Below, piece after piece: positions 2,440 through 14,599 of a stretch of 26,225 bases of DNA. A program made the translations under genes and the position numbers. This DNA is from a virus. The DNA is taken from positions 1 through 26,225 of IMG/VR virus record IMGVR_UViG_3300042154_001914. The stretch is one strand, 5' to 3'. How positions within the stretch are numbered: the stretch's first letter is position 1; every line of letters starts with the position of its first letter. The notes beneath the pieces are model-generated. The model worked only from the letters and a program-made list of their open reading frames with translations. It was not told where the DNA came from and made no database searches.

Positions 2440-2607
2440 TTATTTGTTTTTATTTAATTTATAATGTTTCAAATCATTGATTAACCATTCAATTTGTTCA
2501 TTTGTTAAGTGACCTTTACAGTATGTTCTTACTGTTTTTGTACCTAATGCTTTAGTGAACATATCGTAATTAACACCTACTTCAAATGGATTGCAAAAAT
2601 TACCCAT
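2440..2607 (-). CDS. Small protein (55 aa) between scaffold and capsid genes
   Basis: ATG at 2607 to TAA at 2440 gives 55 residues starting MGNFCNPFEVG and containing TYCKGHLTNEQIEWLINDLK, a compact amphipathic helix pattern. The gene overlaps the end of the scaffold-like gene by 8 nt and stops 3 nt before the capsid ATG, the tight spacing seen through the whole operon, which supports it being real. I recall similarly placed small proteins in related phages but know no function; a head-assembly role is inferred from position only. Confidence 0.7.
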   Translation of the reverse strand: MGNFCNPFEVGVNYDMFTKALGTKTVRTYCKGHLTNEQIEWLINDLKHYKLNKNK

Positions 2608-3166
2608 TCATTCTACTTTTAATGTCTCTAAATCTCTCTAATGGAGTTAAAGGTTTGTTATTTACTGACTTGTTCTCAGGGTTGTGTTTAATTGGTTTAA
2701 CTTCTTCAAGTTCTACAACTTCCTCAACTACTTCTTCAACCTTAGATAACTCAGTAATTTTAGCCTCTAACTCAGTAATTTTAGCCTCTAATTTTGAAAA
2801 GTGTTGCTCCTCAGTTGTTGTTTTAACTATCTTTTTTGCTGTTGTTGTTTGTGGTGCTACTTTCTCAGCTTCTACAGGTACTTCAGTTGGTTCTTCAACT
2901 TCTGTTTCTTCTGACACTTCACCAATTGAAGCTATAATACCTGAAACTTCAACTACTAATATCCTGCCGTCTGCAAGTTCATATTCTCCCGTCTCTAATT
3001 CTACTAAAGCACCCTCAGGCCCCACGATAAAAACTGCTTCACCAACCTCAAACATATCAGCTTGTATAGTTGTCATTCCATCTGCTAAGGGCATATCCTC
3101 AAGTTTTGTCTCCATTCCTAAAAAGGTTTTAAGTGTTTTAATTGCTTTTTTTACTTCTTTGTTCAT
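2600..3166 (-). CDS. Scaffold-like protein, acidic with coiled coil (188 aa)
   Basis: Residues roughly 35-80 form a beta-rich segment (AVFIVGPEGALVELETGEYE, then LADGRILVVE) of a kind I recall in proteins upstream of capsid genes in Bacteroidota phages. The middle is an acidic, low-complexity stretch rich in Glu/Val/Thr, and residues about 125-155 form a coiled coil with the heptad repeated as KITELEAKITEL. The C-terminus is basic. Gene order (protease, beta-helix protein, this gene, capsid) and acidic helical composition suggest an internal scaffold cleaved or expelled during prohead maturation. That role is inference; the beta-rich part is not typical of scaffolds. The start carries the TTAATCGTT motif 8 nt upstream and follows a 61-nt gap, so it may begin a transcription or translation unit. 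Confidence 0.68.
   Translation of the reverse strand: MNKEVKKAIKTLKTFLGMETKLEDMPLADGMTTIQADMFEVGEAVFIVGPEGALVELETGEYELADGRILVVEVSGIIASIGEVSEETEVEEPTEVPVEAEKVAPQTTTAKKIVKTTTEEQHFSKLEAKITELEAKITELSKVEEVVEEVVELEEVKPIKHNPENKSVNNKPLTPLERFRDIKSRMNG
2748..2789 (-). repeat. 21-bp tandem repeat in the scaffold coiled coil
   Basis: Two perfect head-to-tail copies of a 21-bp unit (plus strand AACTCAGTAATTTTAGCCTC plus T) encode two copies of the heptad AKITELE. Exact nucleotide identity indicates a recent duplication of one coiled-coil heptad. Confidence 0.8.
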
Positions 3167-3174
3167 ACCATTTT

Positions 3175-3183
3175 AACGATTAA
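3175..3183 (-). promoter_or_regulatory. Late-gene start motif TTAATCGTT, copy 2
   Basis: On the minus strand TTAATCGTT stands exactly 8 nt before the ATG at 3166, with ACAA 8 nt further upstream. Spacing and sequence match the copies at 725-733 and 12233-12241. Confidence 0.5.
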
Positions 3184-5105: not shown

Positions 5106-6917
5106 TTATAACGTTGCGTTTCTTAATCTGTTTCTATCAAGTGATTGTTGTGTAGACATTTCGCCACTTACTACATAAGCTTGAACAGGTGCTTGTTTTA
5201 ATTGTTGTAATTGGTTTGTGCCGTTATTACCTACTATATTGAAGTTTGGAGTTATAACGTTTTGAGGAGTTGCACCACCACCGCCACCAGTCGAAGGAGC
5301 AGAACCACCACCACCCGTAGCGCCACCTACATTGAATTTTGTAGATGCTATTTTCTTTACATTTAATAAACCTGCAGTAAGTGCCGCTCCTGCTGCTGCA
5401 ATACCTAATCCAACTCCAACAACTGGAATACTAGATAACGAAGCATAAGCACCTGTTGCAGCTTTATAAGTGTCAATTGTTGCATTTGCTATATTCGCAG
5501 CCTTTTGAATTTTAAATGCTGTCTCTTGTTGTTTTCTAGATTTACCTGCAAATAGTTCAGATAAATTTGCAATAGTTGTAAATGTACTTTGAACTGCGTC
5601 AATTTTTTGATTTTGTAAAAGTTTATCTGCTTCTAATTTCTTTTTATCTATTTCATCTTGTGCTTTAGTTTCAGCATCTCTATATTTATCATTAATAGCT
5701 TTTAACTCATCTTTTTGTGCTTGTTCTAATATTGCACTATCAGTATTGTATATTTTAGCTTGCTCAATTAATAAAAAATATTTGTCTTGCGTATTTTGAA
5801 CTTCTAATTGTTCATCTGTTAATTTAGAATTATAGTAATCGTTTTCGGCTTCTTCTTTTTCCGCTAAGTATTGATTTTCTAAGTTTTTTAAATTTCTTAA
5901 TCTTTCTTTTTCAGTGTTAAAATCTTCTAAGTCTTGTGCTTTTTTTGATTCTTTATTTTTATCTCTATTAACTTTATTTTCTGCACTTCTTTTTGCGTTT
6001 GCATCTTTTTGTGCATTTAATAAATCGCTATTGTGTTGAGCCTCTAATATCTTTAAATCAAACTTATCCTGTTTCTGTTGTGCGTATTGTTCAGCAGTTA
6101 ATTTTGTACCGCTGTCATGCGTCAACTTTCTATATCTTATCTGTTCTTCTAATCTTGATTTTTCTAATTGAAATATTTGTTCTGAATTTGCACCTTCTGC
6201 CTTTGCTAAAGCTATTTTATTTTTACTAGATGTGTTTAGCTTTGAAGTGTATTTATCTACTTCATCTTGACTTTGTTTCATCAATCTAATAGACAATTCA
6301 TTTTGTCTATTTAATTCTTTTTGAGCTTCTGCATTTTCATCTGTTGAACGAGTCAATAAATAAAAAGCACCAACCAAAGAACCTATTGCTGTAACTATTA
6401 AAAGAATAGGATTTGCAGCCATAACAACATTTAAAACCCTCATAGCTGCTGCACCTACAATTTGAGCTGCTGTTAAAACTTTTTGTCCTATTGCTGTTTG
6501 ACCTATAACCGCTTTTAATTGTATAAATGAATCTTTAGCTTCTCCCAAACCTTGCAACCCTTGAGACAAAGCCATAGCACTTTGCACCTTCAATAAAGTA
6601 GCTTCAAGTTCTTTAGAATCTACACCAATTAAACCTAAAGCACCTTGATAAGCTGCAAAACCACTTGCAACACCGCTTAATGAATTTGTTAAAGCATTAA
6701 ATTTAGCATCTGGATTAAATGCATCCGTTAAATTCTTTGCATCTCCTATAGCATCTTTTAATTGTGCTGCTTTTCTCGCTGCATTTGTCGCTGCTTCTGA
6801 CGTTGCTCCAAACTTTTCCGATAATGTTTCAACCTCTTTTTGGGCTGTTTTTAATTGGCTCTTTAAACTACCTAAGTTAGTTTCTACATTTAAATTAACT
6901 GTTTTAGTTTCTGCCAT
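5106..6917 (-). CDS. Tail tape measure protein
   Basis: The 603-aa product has an N-terminal helical region with SLKSQLKTAQKEVETLSEKF (about 17-36), a hydrophobic segment at about 168-188 (NPILLIVTAIGSLVGAFYLL), a long charged coiled coil (about 195-430), a second Ala/Gly/Ile-rich hydrophobic stretch (about 490-518) and a Gly/Asn/Gln-rich tail. This is the classic tape-measure layout. At roughly 1.5 angstrom per residue, a figure from known siphophages, it would give a short tail of about 90 nm. It is flanked by other tail genes but sits upstream of the head protease and capsid genes, an unusual order. Its start overlaps the preceding 52-aa gene by 14 nt. Confidence 0.88.
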   Translation of the reverse strand: MAETKTVNLNVETNLGSLKSQLKTAQKEVETLSEKFGATSEAATNAARKAAQLKDAIGDAKNLTDAFNPDAKFNALTNSLSGVASGFAAYQGALGLIGVDSKELEATLLKVQSAMALSQGLQGLGEAKDSFIQLKAVIGQTAIGQKVLTAAQIVGAAAMRVLNVVMAANPILLIVTAIGSLVGAFYLLTRSTDENAEAQKELNRQNELSIRLMKQSQDEVDKYTSKLNTSSKNKIALAKAEGANSEQIFQLEKSRLEEQIRYRKLTHDSGTKLTAEQYAQQKQDKFDLKILEAQHNSDLLNAQKDANAKRSAENKVNRDKNKESKKAQDLEDFNTEKERLRNLKNLENQYLAEKEEAENDYYNSKLTDEQLEVQNTQDKYFLLIEQAKIYNTDSAILEQAQKDELKAINDKYRDAETKAQDEIDKKKLEADKLLQNQKIDAVQSTFTTIANLSELFAGKSRKQQETAFKIQKAANIANATIDTYKAATGAYASLSSIPVVGVGLGIAAAGAALTAGLLNVKKIASTKFNVGGATGGGGSAPSTGGGGGATPQNVITPNFNIVGNNGTNQLQQLKQAPVQAYVVSGEMSTQQSLDRNRLRNATL

Positions 6918-7062
6918 ATTTTCTAGATTTTATTTTTCTAACTCCTTGTTTTAACGCTTCCATTGAGCTTTTTGGTATCTCATTAATACCCTTTGCAATA
7001 TCTATATTTTCCGACTCACCGTAAAAGTTAGAAATTGATAATAATTGTAATAAATTTTTCAT
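6904..7062 (-). CDS. Small protein (52 aa) upstream of the tape measure
   Basis: ATG at 7062 to TAA at 6904 encodes 52 residues, beginning MKNLLQLLSISNFYGESENI and ending in a basic stretch (RKIKSRKYGRN). The start overlaps the previous stop as ATGA and its end overlaps the tape measure start by 14 nt, so it is translationally locked into the tail operon. I do not recognise a family. Given the location, an accessory tail-assembly role is possible. Confidence 0.65.
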   Translation of the reverse strand: MKNLLQLLSISNFYGESENIDIAKGINEIPKSSMEALKQGVRKIKSRKYGRN

Positions 7063-7364
7063 AAATTAATTAGTATATTTTCCGTAAATGTAACCCCAAA
7101 AGTATCCGTCCAACTCATATCTAAATTAGGTAAATATGCTGTGCCTTGTTCTGATATTCTGTTATATCCATCTTCAGTTATTCTTTGATAACTTGTCTCC
7201 GTTGTAATGTTGTAAATAGGGTCTGGGTCAGTTGCAATAGTTACCACCAATAATGTATCGGTTGTGATATTTGACGGTACAGGAGTAACCCCAACACTAC
7301 CTGTGTAAGTTACCCCGTTTATATCTGTTTGATTCGGCACTAAGCCTTCTATTTCGTATATCAT
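7059..7364 (-). CDS. Tail-region protein of unknown function (101 aa)
   Basis: The 101-aa product is rich in Thr, Val, Ile and Pro with alternating strand-like segments and no Lys-rich or membrane regions, suggesting a small all-beta protein. There is a near-repeat YQRITEDGYNRISEQGTAY at about residues 60-80. I do not recognise a named family. ATGA overlaps join it to both neighbours (7361-7364 and 7059-7062), indicating coupled translation with the large tail protein upstream. Confidence 0.65.
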   Translation of the reverse strand: MIYEIEGLVPNQTDINGVTYTGSVGVTPVPSNITTDTLLVVTIATDPDPIYNITTETSYQRITEDGYNRISEQGTAYLPNLDMSWTDTFGVTFTENILINL

Positions 7365-9403
7365 TGTATTACTTTTCTAAAGTCATTAATCAATTCTAAA
7401 GATACTTCACCCGTTGTTATGTCTGAATTAAAAGAGTTAATTATATACCTCTTATCTTGTATAACGAGCCTGTCGTTTAAACGTAACGAGGTGACTAAAC
7501 CTATAGGGAAATAAGCCTTAATTTTAGTTAGTCTATTCTTAGTATTAAATAGGTTTGATAGGTACCCGAAATAATAAGTGGCAAATAATGAGTTGTCAAT
7601 TATCTTATCATACCATGTTGAATTATCACTAGAGAAATTAAGAGAATAAATTTGATTATTATACTCCAAATCTTGACCGAAAATTGCTGTATTTGTTATT
7701 GATGTTTCGGTTGTACCATCAAAAAAACGAACAGTAAAAAAAGGCGCATGACCGTTGTAATATAATAGAATAGGTTTTGGTACATATGGCTTTAAATCAG
7801 GATAACTAGTTAATGCATATCCAACTTGTATATTTGTATTTGAAAACTTTTGAAACTGTAGATTTTCAAATGGTACACTAATATTAAATTCCCCACCATC
7901 ATATGGGTAATCATTTGAAATATCTCCATACTCCCGTCCATTTGCATCACCAAAAGCTCTATTTGTAAATGATTCACTTTTTTGATAGTTGAATGATACT
8001 TTTTTATAAAGTGGCAACCTATCAATTGATATAGTGTCTGTATCAACATATTTTGTTATGTCAGTTGTTGCGCCTTTACTATACCAATTGTCCAAAGGTT
8101 CTATTTGAAAAGTATCAACTCCAACTGAATAGCAAGTTAAATTAAATTGTTTTAATATACCGCTAAAAAAGTCTGATATTGTTATGTCGGGCATATTGTC
8201 GGATATACCTACATAAGCAGCAGGCACGTTTAAAGATGGCACTATCTGTCTCGCAATTACACCACCACCACTTACCGAGTATGCTGTCGTAGTTCCAGCG
8301 AATGTAACCGTATAATTACTAACCCTATCAACTATAATGCTATACCGTATATCTGTATTAATATCTGATCTAACTTTAAATGTCATCACATCTTCATAAG
8401 TAGAGCTAGATTCCATTTCATATATTTTTATATTATTTTCAATTGCAGAATCAAGAGTTACTACCTGATAAAATAAACCATTTTTATATACTGAAATTCC
8501 TAAATTAACATTCGCAACTGTCGTGGCATCTAATCTAAAAAAAATAGTTGACTTCATTGGAAAACCATTTGTCGTTCCTCTCAATGTAAACTCCCCACTA
8601 TCATAAACTAAAGGATCTACATTTGCATCATCATTTATGGGTGCTATATCCGTATATGTTAAATATTTTCCGTATTTTTTAGCTTCTATATTATCTATAT
8701 TTTTACACCATAAAAACAGCTTCTTAAATTTGTTTGTTTGAAGGAATGTCGATTGAAAAGTTATATCATATTTTGTTTGAATTGCTTGAAATATTTTACT
8801 TACTTTAACTGCGGGAAATAGCTCGGCATAGTCTATTCTGCCAACACTAGTATTAATATCTGTGCTTGTTGCATCGTTGTAGCTCCATGCTTTTTCGCTT
8901 GTTATTAAAGGAAATCTAACATCATAATCGGTCACGCTATTTGTTACCCTATCTTGAATTTCAGCTCCGCTTGTAACATCGGTTAAAAATGAATAGTTTA
9001 AATCACTTATCTTAGCAATTCCAAACTTATCTTTTAAACTAGTTAAGTCACCATAGAAAGTAATTGAATAATGTTGTACTTTTCCATCTTTTACGCTACT
9101 CCCCTCTAATTGTATTTTACCCGTTCTAAATGGAACTAAACCAATCTCAATGTAGGCAAATCTTCTTTGATTGTGATCTATTTTATTATTGACATCATTC
9201 TGATAAAAGTATTCAAAGATTTTATTGTTATTATCCGAAGCGGGAACGGTAAAAGACTGACTAAAATCTGTATAAACTTTTGAAATATCCTGAATATTTT
9301 GAATCGAACTAGATATGTTTATTTTTTCATCATCAAATAAATCTAATTTAGTGTAATCGTTTTGCGTTGTCCCTTCAATATAAATATCTACCTGTCGCTT
9401 CAT
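7361..9403 (-). CDS. Large minor tail / baseplate-like protein (680 aa)
   Basis: The 680-aa product begins MKRQVDIYIEG and carries an N-terminal region with DISKVYTDFSQSFTVPASDN, a block I recall from a conserved structural protein of Bacteroidota siphophages. A central segment (about residues 390-450: NMPDITISDFFSGILKQFNL, then TFQIEPLDNWYSKG and DITKYVD) also fits that family. It is beta-rich throughout, without membrane or enzymatic motifs. The position between neck genes and tape measure suggests a distal tail or baseplate hub component. It overlaps both neighbours by 4 nt. Family assignment is from recall, not a search. Confidence 0.68.
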   Translation of the reverse strand: MKRQVDIYIEGTTQNDYTKLDLFDDEKINISSSIQNIQDISKVYTDFSQSFTVPASDNNNKIFEYFYQNDVNNKIDHNQRRFAYIEIGLVPFRTGKIQLEGSSVKDGKVQHYSITFYGDLTSLKDKFGIAKISDLNYSFLTDVTSGAEIQDRVTNSVTDYDVRFPLITSEKAWSYNDATSTDINTSVGRIDYAELFPAVKVSKIFQAIQTKYDITFQSTFLQTNKFKKLFLWCKNIDNIEAKKYGKYLTYTDIAPINDDANVDPLVYDSGEFTLRGTTNGFPMKSTIFFRLDATTVANVNLGISVYKNGLFYQVVTLDSAIENNIKIYEMESSSTYEDVMTFKVRSDINTDIRYSIIVDRVSNYTVTFAGTTTAYSVSGGGVIARQIVPSLNVPAAYVGISDNMPDITISDFFSGILKQFNLTCYSVGVDTFQIEPLDNWYSKGATTDITKYVDTDTISIDRLPLYKKVSFNYQKSESFTNRAFGDANGREYGDISNDYPYDGGEFNISVPFENLQFQKFSNTNIQVGYALTSYPDLKPYVPKPILLYYNGHAPFFTVRFFDGTTETSITNTAIFGQDLEYNNQIYSLNFSSDNSTWYDKIIDNSLFATYYFGYLSNLFNTKNRLTKIKAYFPIGLVTSLRLNDRLVIQDKRYIINSFNSDITTGEVSLELINDFRKVIQ

Positions 9404-10482
9404 ATTAATGGATTTGAAAAGTTAAAATCTAAAGCATAATTTATCAATTTATTATTGATATTTTTCTGCAAATCAACTTGCTTTGTTGTAATTGTCGCAG
9501 GTCTATTATTAATCAATATCCTATCACTTAATAGTATCTGTTTGATAGTATCTTTAAAATCCTCAGTAACCCACCCTGAGTTAGTTTTAATTGATTCGTT
9601 ACCATTTGTGTTGAATGTACTAACTAATCCTTCTTGAGCGTTAAATGTACCTTCATCAACTCTGTAATTTTTGTATGATTGACTTTCTATATTTAAAGAA
9701 TCTGTTGAGTTTTTAAATAAAAATTCTCTTTGCCACGCTCCGAACCTATTTATAAAATCTAAAATTACAGGTGAATATTTACACTCCTCTTGTGGCTTAA
9801 AATAATAAGTAGCTAAAACAGTTGTCGTATCATTATCTATAATTTCTAGCTTATTACCGTCCGCCCAATAAGTAGGGTAAACCTTGTAGATTTGCTTCCA
9901 CTCTGGTAGCTCAGGACTTGCTTCACTTATCGTGTTAGTTACCGTTGCGCCACTTACTAGATTTGTGTATTTATATCTTAAATTATAACTACTAGTATAG
10001 CTATTATAGACAGCTATATCTCCAGGTTTTAAAGTGGCATAAGTTTCAGAGCTATCATAGTGATAGTAATATGTTTTAGGATCTAATAAGTAAGGATCAG
10101 GATTTACATTTATTCCATTTTGTTGGTAGGCATAACCTTTGAATCCTGAATAATCGATACTGTCTAATAATGTATAAGTTGTTCCTACCAATTTATAACG
10201 CTTTATATTAACATTTGTGTAAATTTCTGTATCTAAATCATAATTTAAAGTATTACCATTAATACCATAAGTTAAATTAGTTATGTACTCGTTTATGTAC
10301 GGTGAAACGTCGAAATTTACCTTTGTTACATTAGTTGCCGGAGTTAATTTACTTAGCGTATATTGTGGTAAACTAGGATAGGAAGCTCCTTGCTTCCATA
10401 AAAATATCTCAACTAAACCACCAACTACACCAGTTCCACTAACAGGGATAATATAAGGACTTCTTGTTAATATTATATTCAT
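9400..10482 (-). CDS. Conserved minor tail protein (360 aa)
   Basis: A 360-aa beta-rich protein starting MNIILTRSPYIIPVSG. It contains VNFDVSPYINEYI (about 82-94) and, near residue 240, PVILDFINRFGAWQREFLFK followed by S-T-D-S-L-N, patterns I associate with a tail-structure protein found beside the large tail protein in Bacteroidota phages. The end includes PATITTKQVDLQK and LDFNFSNPLI. It is likely a tail-tip component working with the next gene, with which it overlaps by 4 nt. The biochemical role is unknown. Confidence 0.65.
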   Translation of the reverse strand: MNIILTRSPYIIPVSGTGVVGGLVEIFLWKQGASYPSLPQYTLSKLTPATNVTKVNFDVSPYINEYITNLTYGINGNTLNYDLDTEIYTNVNIKRYKLVGTTYTLLDSIDYSGFKGYAYQQNGINVNPDPYLLDPKTYYYHYDSSETYATLKPGDIAVYNSYTSSYNLRYKYTNLVSGATVTNTISEASPELPEWKQIYKVYPTYWADGNKLEIIDNDTTTVLATYYFKPQEECKYSPVILDFINRFGAWQREFLFKNSTDSLNIESQSYKNYRVDEGTFNAQEGLVSTFNTNGNESIKTNSGWVTEDFKDTIKQILLSDRILINNRPATITTKQVDLQKNINNKLINYALDFNFSNPLI

Positions 10483-11009
10483 TTTTTTGGTTGTTCAATT
10501 GTTTGATTAAATAACGTAACTGCATCCAAACCGTATTTAGTGACTAATTCTTCAGGCAATCTTTTATAAGCTGCTTCAAATGGTTTTGTAAAAAATAAAC
10601 TTGGTTTTATTCCATTGTAATAAATTGACCTAGCAATTAAGAATTGAATTGATTTTCTGAAACCTACTGCGCTAATCGTTCTACCTGTAAATTTTCCATT
10701 TTTTCCACGTGGTGCAAGTCCCTTTCTTACTATCCATTTATCAAGTGCTTTTGGTGGTGGCATCTTTGTACCGAACTTATAAGCGGTCGTCCAAACTGAT
10801 CTTTTACCATTAACTCCCTTATCCTGAAAAGTACCGTAATCCTCCATTGAGAAATACAAGCTAAATGAATTTGCCATTAGTTTGTATTCGCCTTTTAAGC
10901 TATTATAAAGCTTCTTAGAACTATTCTTTTTTAGCTTAGTAAGATTTGTTCTACTTTCTTTTATAACGTAGTCACGAAACTTCTTTAATTCCTTTTCAGT
11001 TTCTAACAT
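10479..11009 (-). CDS. HK97-gp10-like neck/tail-completion protein
   Basis: The 176-aa product is basic, with an N-terminal helix (ETEKELKKFRDYVIKESR), a YGTFQDKGVNGK segment near 58-69, TKMPPPKALDKWIVRKGLAP (about 81-100), then KSIQFLIARSIYYNGIKPS and FFTKPFEAA. The small size, the YGxFQDxG-type turn and the rigid helix followed by the IARxIYxxGI motif match the gp10-like tail-completion family of Bacteroidota phages. Such proteins sit at the head-tail interface. It overlaps the 151-aa gene before it by 7 nt and the 360-aa gene after it by 4 nt. Tail-completion is family-level inference. Confidence 0.65.
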   Translation of the reverse strand: MLETEKELKKFRDYVIKESRTNLTKLKKNSSKKLYNSLKGEYKLMANSFSLYFSMEDYGTFQDKGVNGKRSVWTTAYKFGTKMPPPKALDKWIVRKGLAPRGKNGKFTGRTISAVGFRKSIQFLIARSIYYNGIKPSLFFTKPFEAAYKRLPEELVTKYGLDAVTLFNQTIEQPKK

Positions 11010-11458
11010 ATAACCATACTATTTTCGCAAATAACATCGAAAGTCATAGTCCAGCCAGCTACATTTTCCTCAAACTTATCATAAAAAGGCTCGCAGTTAG
11101 CAACATTTTCAATCTGATATAGATCACTGAATAAAGAACCTCTATACATACTTTCATAAAGTCTATTTAGAATTGATAATGTCGTATTCATTACGTCGTC
11201 TTCATTATTATTCCCTACATATTCTATTAACGTTTGATCCTTGCTAAAATCAACTAAATCCATGCATATTATTGATATGTTAAAGATTAAAACTTGCTTA
11301 TCAAATGTAGAACTATTAACCATTATATGACATAAAGGGAAAAGGTTTTGTTTGTTGTTTAATACACTTGCAAGGTCTCCCTTAGTCGTTTGATTAACTA
11401 AACTATCATTGTTAACACTATCATATAACTTTGTCACTATGTCGTAAAATCCACTCAT
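11003..11458 (-). CDS. Conserved neck/tail-terminator-like protein (151 aa)
   Basis: The 151-aa product begins MSGFYDIVTKLYDSV and contains LFPLCHIMVNSSTF (about 40-53), an IICMDLVDFSK strand, a helix with MNTTLSILNRLYESMYRG, and NVAGWTMTFDVICEN at the end. The N-terminal helix, central beta-sheet and late AGW-x-M/L-TFDV strand match a Bacteroidota phage family located next to gp10-like genes. In other siphophages this slot holds the tail terminator, which is the inferred role. ATGA joins it to the frameshifted chaperone reading frame, and it overlaps the next gene by 7 nt. Confidence 0.62.
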   Translation of the reverse strand: MSGFYDIVTKLYDSVNNDSLVNQTTKGDLASVLNNKQNLFPLCHIMVNSSTFDKQVLIFNISIICMDLVDFSKDQTLIEYVGNNNEDDVMNTTLSILNRLYESMYRGSLFSDLYQIENVANCEPFYDKFEENVAGWTMTFDVICENSMVIC

Positions 11459-11733
11459 TTTAATCTTTGTTTTTTTAATTGGTTAATTTCTATTCTATTC
11501 TTTTGCTTTTCGAATGTCAAAAAGTTAAGGATGGTAAATAGTTCTGTTCTGAGGACTTCATCAAATTTTGTAACGTCTCCCTTTGCGACTGCATAAATTG
11601 ACTGATACCATCCCCATTGTTTGCTGAACTGATTTTCTTCGCTAAAATCATTCTGTTGCTCTTGTTCAGTTTCTTCATCTGTGTCTCCAAATAGTTGAGT
11701 GTAGCTTCCAACAACTCCCTTTCTAAATTCCAA
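11455..11733 (-). CDS. Tail-assembly chaperone, -1 frame extension (GT-like part)
   Basis: This 92-codon frame has no ATG at its left end; it opens at a TTG that lies inside a run of nine T residues and is in the -1 frame of the 235-aa gene. It encodes LEFRKGVVGSYTQLFG, an acidic linker, then KQWGWYQSIYAVAKGD, VTKFDEVL and a C-terminal FLTFEKQKNRIEINQL helix, a pattern I recognise from the second tail-chaperone protein of Bacteroidota phages. The simplest reading is a -1 ribosomal frameshift giving a 256-aa fusion (164 residues of the first frame plus 92). It ends with ATGA overlapping the next gene. An independent TTG start is a weaker alternative. Confidence 0.7.
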   Translation of the reverse strand: MEFRKGVVGSYTQLFGDTDEETEQEQQNDFSEENQFSKQWGWYQSIYAVAKGDVTKFDEVLRTELFTILNFLTFEKQKNRIEINQLKKQRLK

Positions 11734-12224
11734 AAAAAAACATGTGAACTTAATGCAACTGATAATGGAGTGTATTTCATTAAGTCGCTAAATTCCTCAA
11801 CGTTATTAAATGGTGCAATTAGATATTGATTCTTTTTATTCTTCTCAATTACGGGACGGTATAACACTGCCATTGCTTTGTGAAAGGTATCAAAATCTTT
11901 AAATTGACTTTCTAATTCAATATATTCCTCCCAAGTTATTTTATCAAAGTTTGGTATCATACCAAGTTCCAAATCTTTTATTTTGAAAGTAGGTTTTAAC
12001 TTCGGTATCTCGGAGAACAATTTATTAAAATGATTAACCAATTCAACCATATCATTGAAAGCTATTTTAACAACTTCTTTTAATTCAATTCCACAAAAGA
12101 TTTGTATCATTTTTTGCGCTGTAAACTCATCATCATTTGAGTTCTTAGATACCTCCATAAACTTTTGGTAATGTAGTAATGGAATTTCATCTAAAGACGT
12201 TGGTATTGTAAGTTCTATTTTCAT
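11517..12224 (-). CDS. Tail-assembly chaperone, 0-frame product (G-like, 235 aa)
   Basis: The 235-aa product begins MKIELTIPTSLDEIPLLHYQ and contains FTAQKMIQIFCGI, a MIPNFDKITWEEYIELES segment and FHKAMAVLYRPVIEKNKKNQ, typical of the first tail-chaperone frame in Bacteroidota phages. After the slippery T run its own frame continues for 71 residues ending with NNGDGISQFMQS, which also resembles natural ends of this family, so 217 nt appear to code for protein in two frames. Chaperones of this type coat the tape measure before tube assembly. The nonamer TTAATCGTT lies 8 nt before the ATG, and a 31-nt gap separates the gene from terL, so this may start a late unit. Confidence 0.72.
   Translation of the reverse strand: MKIELTIPTSLDEIPLLHYQKFMEVSKNSNDDEFTAQKMIQIFCGIELKEVVKIAFNDMVELVNHFNKLFSEIPKLKPTFKIKDLELGMIPNFDKITWEEYIELESQFKDFDTFHKAMAVLYRPVIEKNKKNQYLIAPFNNVEEFSDLMKYTPLSVALSSHVFFWNLERELLEATLNYLETQMKKLNKSNRMILAKKISSANNGDGISQFMQSQRETLQNLMKSSEQNYLPSLTF
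11732..11740 (-). other. Slippery run U9 for -1 programmed frameshift
   Basis: The minus strand reads CAT GTT TTT TTT TGG in the 0 frame, so the heptamer T-TTT-TTT stands in the correct phase (X-XXY-YYZ) for tandem slippage by one base. Slipping back after the second TTT moves reading to TTG GAA TTT AGA, the frame of the 92-codon extension. The 0 frame and -1 frame are both open here. Confidence 0.7.
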
Positions 12225-12232
12225 ATATTTAA

Positions 12233-12241
12233 AACGATTAA
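12233..12241 (-). promoter_or_regulatory. Late-gene start motif TTAATCGTT, copy 3
   Basis: The nonamer precedes the ATG of the tail chaperone gene by exactly 8 nt, with ACAA 8 nt upstream of it, as in copy 2. It lies in the short gap after the terL stop codon. Confidence 0.5.
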
Positions 12242-12255
12242 ATTAATATTTGTGT

Positions 12256-13458
12256 TTAGTAGATTGAATAATTACCTTTATTTCTACCTAATCCTATAGT
12301 TTCCATTTCGTGGTATCTCCAGGCATCAATTGCGTGGTTAAAATTCTCAATCGGTTTATTCAATTTCGCTCCTGTTTTTTTGTCTTTGTCCCATGCATAT
12401 TTACGTAGTTCATTTATCAAATTTAAAGAAGTTTGACTAACTAAATAACTATTGTCTTGAATTGTTTGGATACCATAGTTTATACTATCCGAACCTTTTG
12501 TGACTGCATAAGCATTTACACCGTATGATTTTAATTCTGCTATTGATTTTGGCTCTGCACTATCACAATAACAAGGTAATTTTGTTGTAATATATTTTGC
12601 TATTTGTGAATTACTTAACCCTTTGTTATAACATATCTCATTTATTATTCTTTGGTCGTTATATTTATATATTTCTATTATAGAAGTAGGATCATTTGTA
12701 TAACCAAAATCTAATCCGTAACCGATTAAACGAGCCTCACTAGGTATATTGTCAATTAGCTTCCAATTATTGAATATAACCCCTTCTAAATTACCAATTT
12801 CACCTAGAATATAAACATAACACCAATTCGCCCAATAACTATTCTTTATATTATTGCTATCCTTCCAATCTTTATTGACATCGTGAAAGGCTTTTGACTG
12901 TTTAATCAATAAATCTTCTAAAGTTTCTGGTGGTAAACCTTCATTATCGTGGTATGTTAATAATAAAAATTCAGAATTATGTTCCTGTAAAGTTTCAGTA
13001 TGCACCCAAAATTCATTGTCTGGGTTAAAATCTATCCAAGTTTCTTTTGACCTAATCATTAAAGCATCTGCTATGTCAAAAGCTATATGATTTGCCTCAT
13101 TAATAAATAATATATCACGCTTACCACTTGCTTTTGCCTTACCTACATTATCAAATGATTTGAATTGAATACGTGTGCCGTTGTGAAAAGTATATGTTAA
13201 GCTAGATGCATTCCAATGTGTATCAATCCAACGATTTGTCTCTTGCATTATGGTTCTAAAGATGTCTAATGCACCCTCTTTTACTGCTGGTAATGTTTCA
13301 GCAACTACGGTTATTTTTATCTTAGATGTCTTTGTTGCCTTATCAATTAATATTGGTATAATTCCATACGTTTTACCTGCTGAAGTACCGCCTTGAATAA
13401 CTCTTTTACGAGCCTTCATATTTAGCAATTTCTTTATTGCAGTAGTTTTCGTAAACAT
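12256..13458 (-). CDS. terL: Terminase large subunit
   Basis: The 400-aa product has an N-terminal ATPase with Walker A GGTSAGKT at 23-30, a Walker B-like RDILFINEANHI near 115-126, and a C-terminal RNase-H-like nuclease with acidic clusters at GLDFGYTNDPT (about 248-258), CDSAEPKSI and NFNHAIDAWRY (Asp378). Together these define the DNA-packaging motor that translocates and cuts phage DNA at the portal. The length is near the family minimum (about 400-430) and no motif is missing. It is similar in style to PBSX-type terminases. The ATG overlaps the TerS stop by one base (TAATG). Confidence 0.93.
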   Translation of the reverse strand: MFTKTTAIKKLLNMKARKRVIQGGTSAGKTYGIIPILIDKATKTSKIKITVVAETLPAVKEGALDIFRTIMQETNRWIDTHWNASSLTYTFHNGTRIQFKSFDNVGKAKASGKRDILFINEANHIAFDIADALMIRSKETWIDFNPDNEFWVHTETLQEHNSEFLLLTYHDNEGLPPETLEDLLIKQSKAFHDVNKDWKDSNNIKNSYWANWCYVYILGEIGNLEGVIFNNWKLIDNIPSEARLIGYGLDFGYTNDPTSIIEIYKYNDQRIINEICYNKGLSNSQIAKYITTKLPCYCDSAEPKSIAELKSYGVNAYAVTKGSDSINYGIQTIQDNSYLVSQTSLNLINELRKYAWDKDKKTGAKLNKPIENFNHAIDAWRYHEMETIGLGRNKGNYSIY

Positions 13459-14086: not shown

Positions 14087-14599
14087 TTATATCAATTCAT
14101 ATTCTTTATTTAAATAATCTTCAAAATCTTCGCCTATCTCTAACCTAATTTTTTCCTTAGTTTTCTTAATACTTCTAAAAACTGTTGAAGGAGCTATATT
14201 GTATTTCGCTGCTATTTTTCGCATTGATAAACCTTTCTCGAAATAGTTATTTAGTATTATAACGTCTGAATAGTGTGTTTTGTATTTAACGGCTTCTATC
14301 TTTGTATTTATCTTTGTGAAGGATTGAAATTCTAATTCATCTATTTGCTCCGAAACTAAGCTTTTAACGTCCTCTAAGTTGACTTTTGTCATTCTGTTGT
14401 CTATTCTTACCTTATCAATGTAGACCGATCTTAAAGTTAACCAAATGTATGCGTCTGATATATCTTTGTTGCTCTTGTTTGTGTATATTTTTAGATACAT
14501 ATCTTGAACGACATCTTCTGAAAGTTCACCAGCTCCAAATGACTTTGCTATTGATACCCATTTTTTATGATTCTTAGATATTTTTTCTAATTGCTTCAT
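14087..14599 (-). CDS. Phage RNA polymerase sigma factor (sigma-70-like)
   Basis: The 170-aa product has a region-2-like N-terminal half (about 10-70: GELSEDVVQDMYLKIYTNKS then YIWLTLRSVYIDKVR, including the promoter-core binding pattern) and a C-terminal region 4 helix-turn-helix (about 124-146: LSMRKIAAKYNIAPSTVFRS). This is the architecture of ECF-sized sigma factors and of phage sigma-like regulators. It stands just before terS, at the start of the late genes, which suggests it directs host RNA polymerase to late promoters; the TTAATCGTT motif at three late starts is a candidate target. ATGA overlaps the upstream gene, so it is expressed from the middle operon. Confidence 0.82.
   Translation of the reverse strand: MKQLEKISKNHKKWVSIAKSFGAGELSEDVVQDMYLKIYTNKSNKDISDAYIWLTLRSVYIDKVRIDNRMTKVNLEDVKSLVSEQIDELEFQSFTKINTKIEAVKYKTHYSDVIILNNYFEKGLSMRKIAAKYNIAPSTVFRSIKKTKEKIRLEIGEDFEDYLNKEYELI

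Follow-up and report, generated by a model that had tools for sequence, protein, structure and literature searches.

A conserved T run and two overlapping, apparently selected C-terminal reading frames in a probable tail chaperone gene of Bacteroidota phages

We describe a viral gene that appears to encode two proteins with a common N-terminal part and different C-termini, the latter read in overlapping frames from the same DNA. The core of this claim, which comes from comparative sequence analysis and which we hold with high confidence, is that a T run is conserved at the junction, that both frames beyond it are under selection, and that the second frame lacks an independent start. The gene lies in IMG/VR virus record IMGVR_UViG_3300042154_001914; the window, meaning the whole stretch of DNA that was analysed, is 26,225 nt long.

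The structural genes of the window are on the minus strand, in the order probable small terminase subunit gene, TerL, frameshift gene, 151-aa gene, 176-aa gene, genes for larger proteins, tape measure gene and probable head genes. The frameshift gene begins with an ATG at 12224, and codons 162-165 of its 235 codons read GTT TTT TTT TGG (Table 1). From inside the nine T the -1 frame stays open to 11455 and includes KQWGWYQSIYAVAKGD; joined to the 164 codons upstream, its 92 codons would give a fusion of 256 residues. An earlier note, made from the letters of this stretch alone, had described the T run with its in-phase T_TTT_TTT, a -1 frame opening at a TTG in the run without a nearby ATG, and a 0 frame that continues for 71 codons past the run, so that some 217 nt code twice and the products have 235 and 256 residues. 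We reproduced these coordinates and lengths exactly, and near the opening of the -1 frame no start-like codon is present other than the TTG, which the T run itself forms. Ahead of the terminase genes, 14087-14599 encodes a 170-aa protein resembling a small sigma factor; in Nonlabens phage P12024L, too, a Sigma-70 region 2 gene precedes the terminase gene. Elsewhere in the window, a 196-aa ORF (2586-3176, plus strand) lies antisense over a 188-aa Glu/Lys/Val-rich gene (2600-3166, minus strand) and is probably a compositional by-product.

Table 1. Features of the frameshift gene and of the gene that follows it, in positions of the window.
Feature	Position	Strand	Basis
0-frame product, 235 aa: shared N-terminal domain and 71-codon, probably helical C-terminal tail	11517..12224	-	Conserved in alignments A1/A4/A8; AlphaFold model
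Part common to both products, 164 codons, ending FF; probable tail-assembly-chaperone domain	11733..12224	-	phrog_166 alignment in several members; 2ob9 match within noise
T9 slip run (11740-11732) with in-phase T_TTT_TTT heptamer (11739-11733)	11732..11740	-	At least 9 T in 253/253 distinct loci
-1 frame of 92 codons with the WGWYQSIYA-x-AKGD domain, accessible only through a frameshift	11455..11733	-	ATG in first 40 codons in 4/247 loci
Dual-coding stretch, 217 nt, 0 and -1 frames both constrained	11517..11733	-	0-frame openness test; -1 synonymous rates
Next gene, 151 aa; ATG overlaps the -1-frame stop, not the 0-frame stop	11003..11458	-	Junction ATGA or TAATG in 200/247 loci

Searches with either frame yielded 344 loci including the window, 253 of them distinct. 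Nearly all come from IMG/VR; the others are three contigs filed under Bacteroidota genomes (two Bacteroidetes bacteria and one Flavobacterium) and the isolated phages Nonlabens P12024S and P12024L. Every distinct locus has an uninterrupted T run at the site, with nine T in 235 cases, ten in 17 and twelve in one, and none is shorter. Among 59 divergent relatives, runs of at least nine T occur at the site in 59/59 and elsewhere six times in 312,743 bases; on these counts, the presence of the run at the site far exceeds chance. Read in the canonical register, 56 of the 59 clusters have TTT as the second Phe codon, two have TTG and one has TTC, and in these last three the run has been lengthened upstream. 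Beyond the run, the 0 frame is open for 52-101 codons in all distinct loci except the Nonlabens phages, where the tail has 25 codons. These two phages, P12024S and P12024L (genes 38-39 and 40-41, respectively; Inhavirus), provide an isolated homologue of the gene: it adjoins TerL, carries T9, and has a -1 domain (FFLSFRERL...KWGWY) whose first residues, FFLSFRERL, begin within the run. The annotation lists its two parts as hypothetical proteins in their own right and mentions no frameshift. Homopolymer sequencing error was rejected as the source of the split reading frame, since 252 of the 253 distinct loci require a shift. The single locus that does not (L070) has a T10 run (959-968), which places both frames in a single ORF. 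The run is T9 in the closest relative of this locus (L081), with 96% identity downstream, and the T10 reflects either an error of assembly or a fusion that has become genetically fixed.

A conserved -1 peptide might by itself keep the 0 frame open, and for this reason openness was tested by holding the -1 peptide constant and sampling codons according to the usage of each phage. The expectation was an open length of about 21 codons and the observed mean was 71 (median P of the observed length 0.001), and among 60 clusters more than 25% divergent about 1.6 were expected to be open, whereas 60/60 were. A stricter permutation of each gene's own codons gave a P per cluster with a median of about 0.07; the combined P was 3e-21, a figure that overstates the evidence because the loci share ancestry. 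Judged by these tests, the long open 0 frame is beyond chance and is not explained by the -1 peptide. Synonymous rates were compared in 107 disjoint pairs. The 0-frame rate upstream of the run was 0.357, and the -1 rate was 0.159 in the overlap and 0.274 after the 0-frame stop, giving ratios for the overlap of 0.50 to the upstream rate (95% interval 0.44-0.56) and 0.62 to the rate after the stop (0.52-0.75). The -1 rate fell below the upstream rate in 98 of the 107 pairs, with its minimum in the first 20 codons (0.109) and its maximum just past the 0-frame stop (0.337). This pattern indicates that both frames are constrained, most strongly near the slip site. Comparison of related phages and an examination of synonymous sites had been named in the earlier note as checks on the frameshift, and both bear it out: the T run, its phase and both tails are conserved in about 250 distinct loci, and the -1 rate drops by half over the overlap, then climbs once the 0-frame stop is passed.

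Two rival accounts of the locus were weighed against these data. The 0-frame tail could be a by-product, open by accident, with the -1 domain alone mattering to the phage. Some conserved 0-frame residues (GDGI) are indeed dictated by the conserved WGWY motif of the -1 frame, the Nonlabens phages have only the short tail, and the replacements forced on the 0 frame are hardly more conservative than expected (mean BLOSUM score -0.30 observed, -0.35 expected), this last comparison being uninformative. However, the openness of the 0 frame lies far above expectation given the -1 peptide, and the suppression of -1 synonymous change over the overlap is relieved past the 0-frame stop, which largely refutes this account and leaves it very improbable. 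The locus could instead hold two separate genes and make no fusion, the second starting inside the first from its own start codon or by reinitiation. The TTG at the run in the window would suit such an arrangement, as would the annotation of the second part in Nonlabens P12024L from an ATG that overlaps the 0-frame stop. In the relatives, however, the codon at the run is TTA, TTT, CTA and others, with no conserved start, and the conserved -1 peptide FFL-x-FR begins in the run, in the Nonlabens phages too. A conserved ATG belonging to the 92-aa part, which the earlier note had said would count against a fusion, was looked for: just four of 247 loci have an ATG within the first 40 codons of the -1 frame. 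A separate start codon for the 92-aa part was rejected on these grounds, and the two-gene arrangement is scarcely credible. Since the -1 frame has no conserved start, a frameshift is needed to reach it.

We propose that a large group of Bacteroidota tailed phages has conserved this frameshift gene, which is most likely a tail assembly chaperone gene analogous to lambda G/GT and P2 E/E+E'. The majority of decoding would keep to frame 0 and give the 235-aa protein. A minority would slip one base back on U9, most likely through two tRNA-Phe re-pairing on U_UUU_UUU, and would then proceed in the -1 frame to give the 256-aa protein. The unshifted protein would have its own C-terminal tail, conserved, about 70 codons long and probably helical, and the DNA that encodes it would also encode the start of the -1 domain, so that the slip would exchange two C-termini instead of adding a domain to a truncated form. 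Shifted decoding would end at the start of the next gene, since the -1 stop overlaps that start. Taken as a whole, with the presumed synthesis and amount of the fusion, the ribosomal route and the chaperone function all included, we regard this chain as moderately probable.

The -1-frame stop occupies 11455-11457, some 60 nt beyond the stop of the 0 frame. A homologue of the 151-aa gene is found directly downstream in 233/233 loci with room for it. The overlap of the -1 stop with the ATG of this gene suggests translational coupling for shifted ribosomes, and because the 0 frame stops short of it, frameshifting may tune translation of the next gene.

The same two products could arise by RNA polymerase slippage on T9, in which case transcripts with U10 would place the -1 domain in frame, those with U9 would give the 235-aa protein, and other lengths would reach a stop within a few bases of the run. 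The sequence is compatible with both routes, and phase cannot separate them, because any run of nine holds an in-phase heptamer. Several observations favour the polymerase. The run is never of seven or eight T in any of the 253 loci, though a ribosomal heptamer needs only seven, and nine A or T is the length at which transcriptional slippage is documented in bacteria, as reviewed by Atkins and co-workers (PMC5009743). The third frame meets a stop within two codons of the run in 59/59 clusters, and lineages in which the canonical last T codon has changed have extended the run upstream. No RNA stimulatory structure was found downstream or upstream of the run, the 70 and 110 bases after it folding like shuffled sequence (59 clusters, mean z about -0.1), and no other conserved frameshift stimulator was seen. 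The total absence of runs shorter than nine is suggestive of polymerase slippage, not decisively so: the two flanking T can be explained by amino-acid constraint (hydrophobic xTT, FF, W/Y/C; L in the -1 frame), and nine is thus no proof. Known tail chaperones, lambda G/GT among them, use ribosomal slippage (PMC5009743, PMC3931495), and because of these cases we place programmed -1 ribosomal slippage on U_UUU_UUU first, as the likely route. Slippage by the polymerase seems somewhat unlikely, and we consider it unlikely that the Bacteroidota phage group makes a tail-chaperone pair by polymerase slippage on T9 with a swap of two selected, overlapping C-termini. Of the programmed -1 frameshift claimed at the outset, the need for a shift stands and the ribosome is its likely agent; the sequence itself does not separate polymerase from ribosome slippage.

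The frameshift gene is likely, though not proven, to encode a tail assembly chaperone, on the basis of weak profile matches, the mechanism and the setting among tail genes. Of 60 members, 13 weakly matched the phrog_166 profile (tail protein), with a best E of 5e-4, across residues of about 10-73, a range taken from members scanned singly; P2 gpE also matches this profile, at 4e-7. Pfam Phage_TAC_7 was matched by three members at about 0.1. Direct hhalign comparison with P2 gpE, HK97 gp13 and lambda gpG gave nothing, and a PDB sequence search gave no match. AlphaFold modelled the 0-frame protein with a mean pLDDT of 85.6. The shared N-terminal part models well, as does that of the natural T10 fusion from L070. 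In the tail region, helices were predicted at 154-185, 188-199 and 206-223 with lower confidence; the first carries the slip site and runs on in the 0-frame model. Because alignments rich in -1 fragments were misaligned, the fusion was modelled with few -1 rows, and its C-terminal domain has low confidence. Foldseek found no match in the PDB at E up to 0.001, the fusion model giving one noise-level row only. The HK97 tail assembly chaperone 2ob9 was matched with Z 4.0 over 63 residues within 1-72, among unrelated rows of like Z and thus within noise. As a separate observation, the motif WGWYxSIYxxAKGDVTKFDEV of the -1 domain and the N-domain motif FGFIPNLEEISFGEYVDLE were aligned with each other by MAFFT when present as fragments (alignments A5/A7); an internal duplication is possible.

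In gene order, this locus departs from typical tail chaperone genes. The weak profile matches and the neighbourhood agree with the tail chaperone named in the earlier note, but the gene follows TerL and is not found directly before the tape measure gene, in the position between major tail protein and tape measure that is typical of tail chaperones. The tape measure gene (5106-6917) belongs to the same gene block, with several other ORFs between it and the frameshift gene. The order across 5106-13458 is unusual in this respect, the putative tail chaperone coming after the large terminase and several ORFs before the tape measure gene. Literature searches for the frameshift gene in Bacteroidota phages returned nothing specific.

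The lambda G/GT system resembles the arrangement proposed here in having one gene, a slip site, a low-level -1 shift, two proteins that share an N-terminal domain, and tail genes around it. In lambda, the slip occurs on GGGAAAG 18 nt before the end of G, whereas the T9 run of the window lies about 213 nt before the 0-frame stop and is followed by a selected 0-frame tail. There is no detectable sequence similarity between the two, and lambda G/GT sits between the major tail protein and tape measure genes, whereas the window gene adjoins TerL. P2 E/E+E', with its T6G slip site, shares a T-run slippery site, the -1 direction and a match to phrog_166, for the window family in the N-terminal region; it differs in that E ends 20 nt past the shift site, and the window family has no direct match to gpE. 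E' extends 37 nt back into E (PMC3931495). Genes that use transcriptional slippage on A or T runs, such as Thermus dnaX and Shigella spa13 (PMC5009743), also have a homopolymer run and two products per gene, but they are not phage tail genes.

The length of the overlap sets the family apart. According to PMC10274946, slip site and 0-frame stop are on average 26 nt apart in SEA-PHAGES, and for the collection of Xu and colleagues the mean is 36 nt. In the relatives outside Nonlabens the distance is 156-303 nt, and the doubly coded stretch of the window is about six to eight times the average of well-studied phages. An early end of the 0 frame, typical though not strictly defining for the lambda G/GT kind, is absent here, which weakens the case for a standard member of that kind. 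PRFect counts closeness of the 0-frame stop among its features and is reported to fail on long distances (PMC10274946); genes like this one would therefore tend to be missed. Frameshifted tail chaperones are already known, and what is new is the long, conserved dual coding that gives alternative C-termini. Phage tail-chaperone frameshifts are usually pictured as yielding a short form and an extended one. That hundreds of phages maintain both frames along roughly 160-300 nt points to a tail of the unshifted form that matters in its own right, and a T run that is always pure and at least nine long makes the choice between ribosomal and transcriptional slippage directly testable in a phage tail gene.
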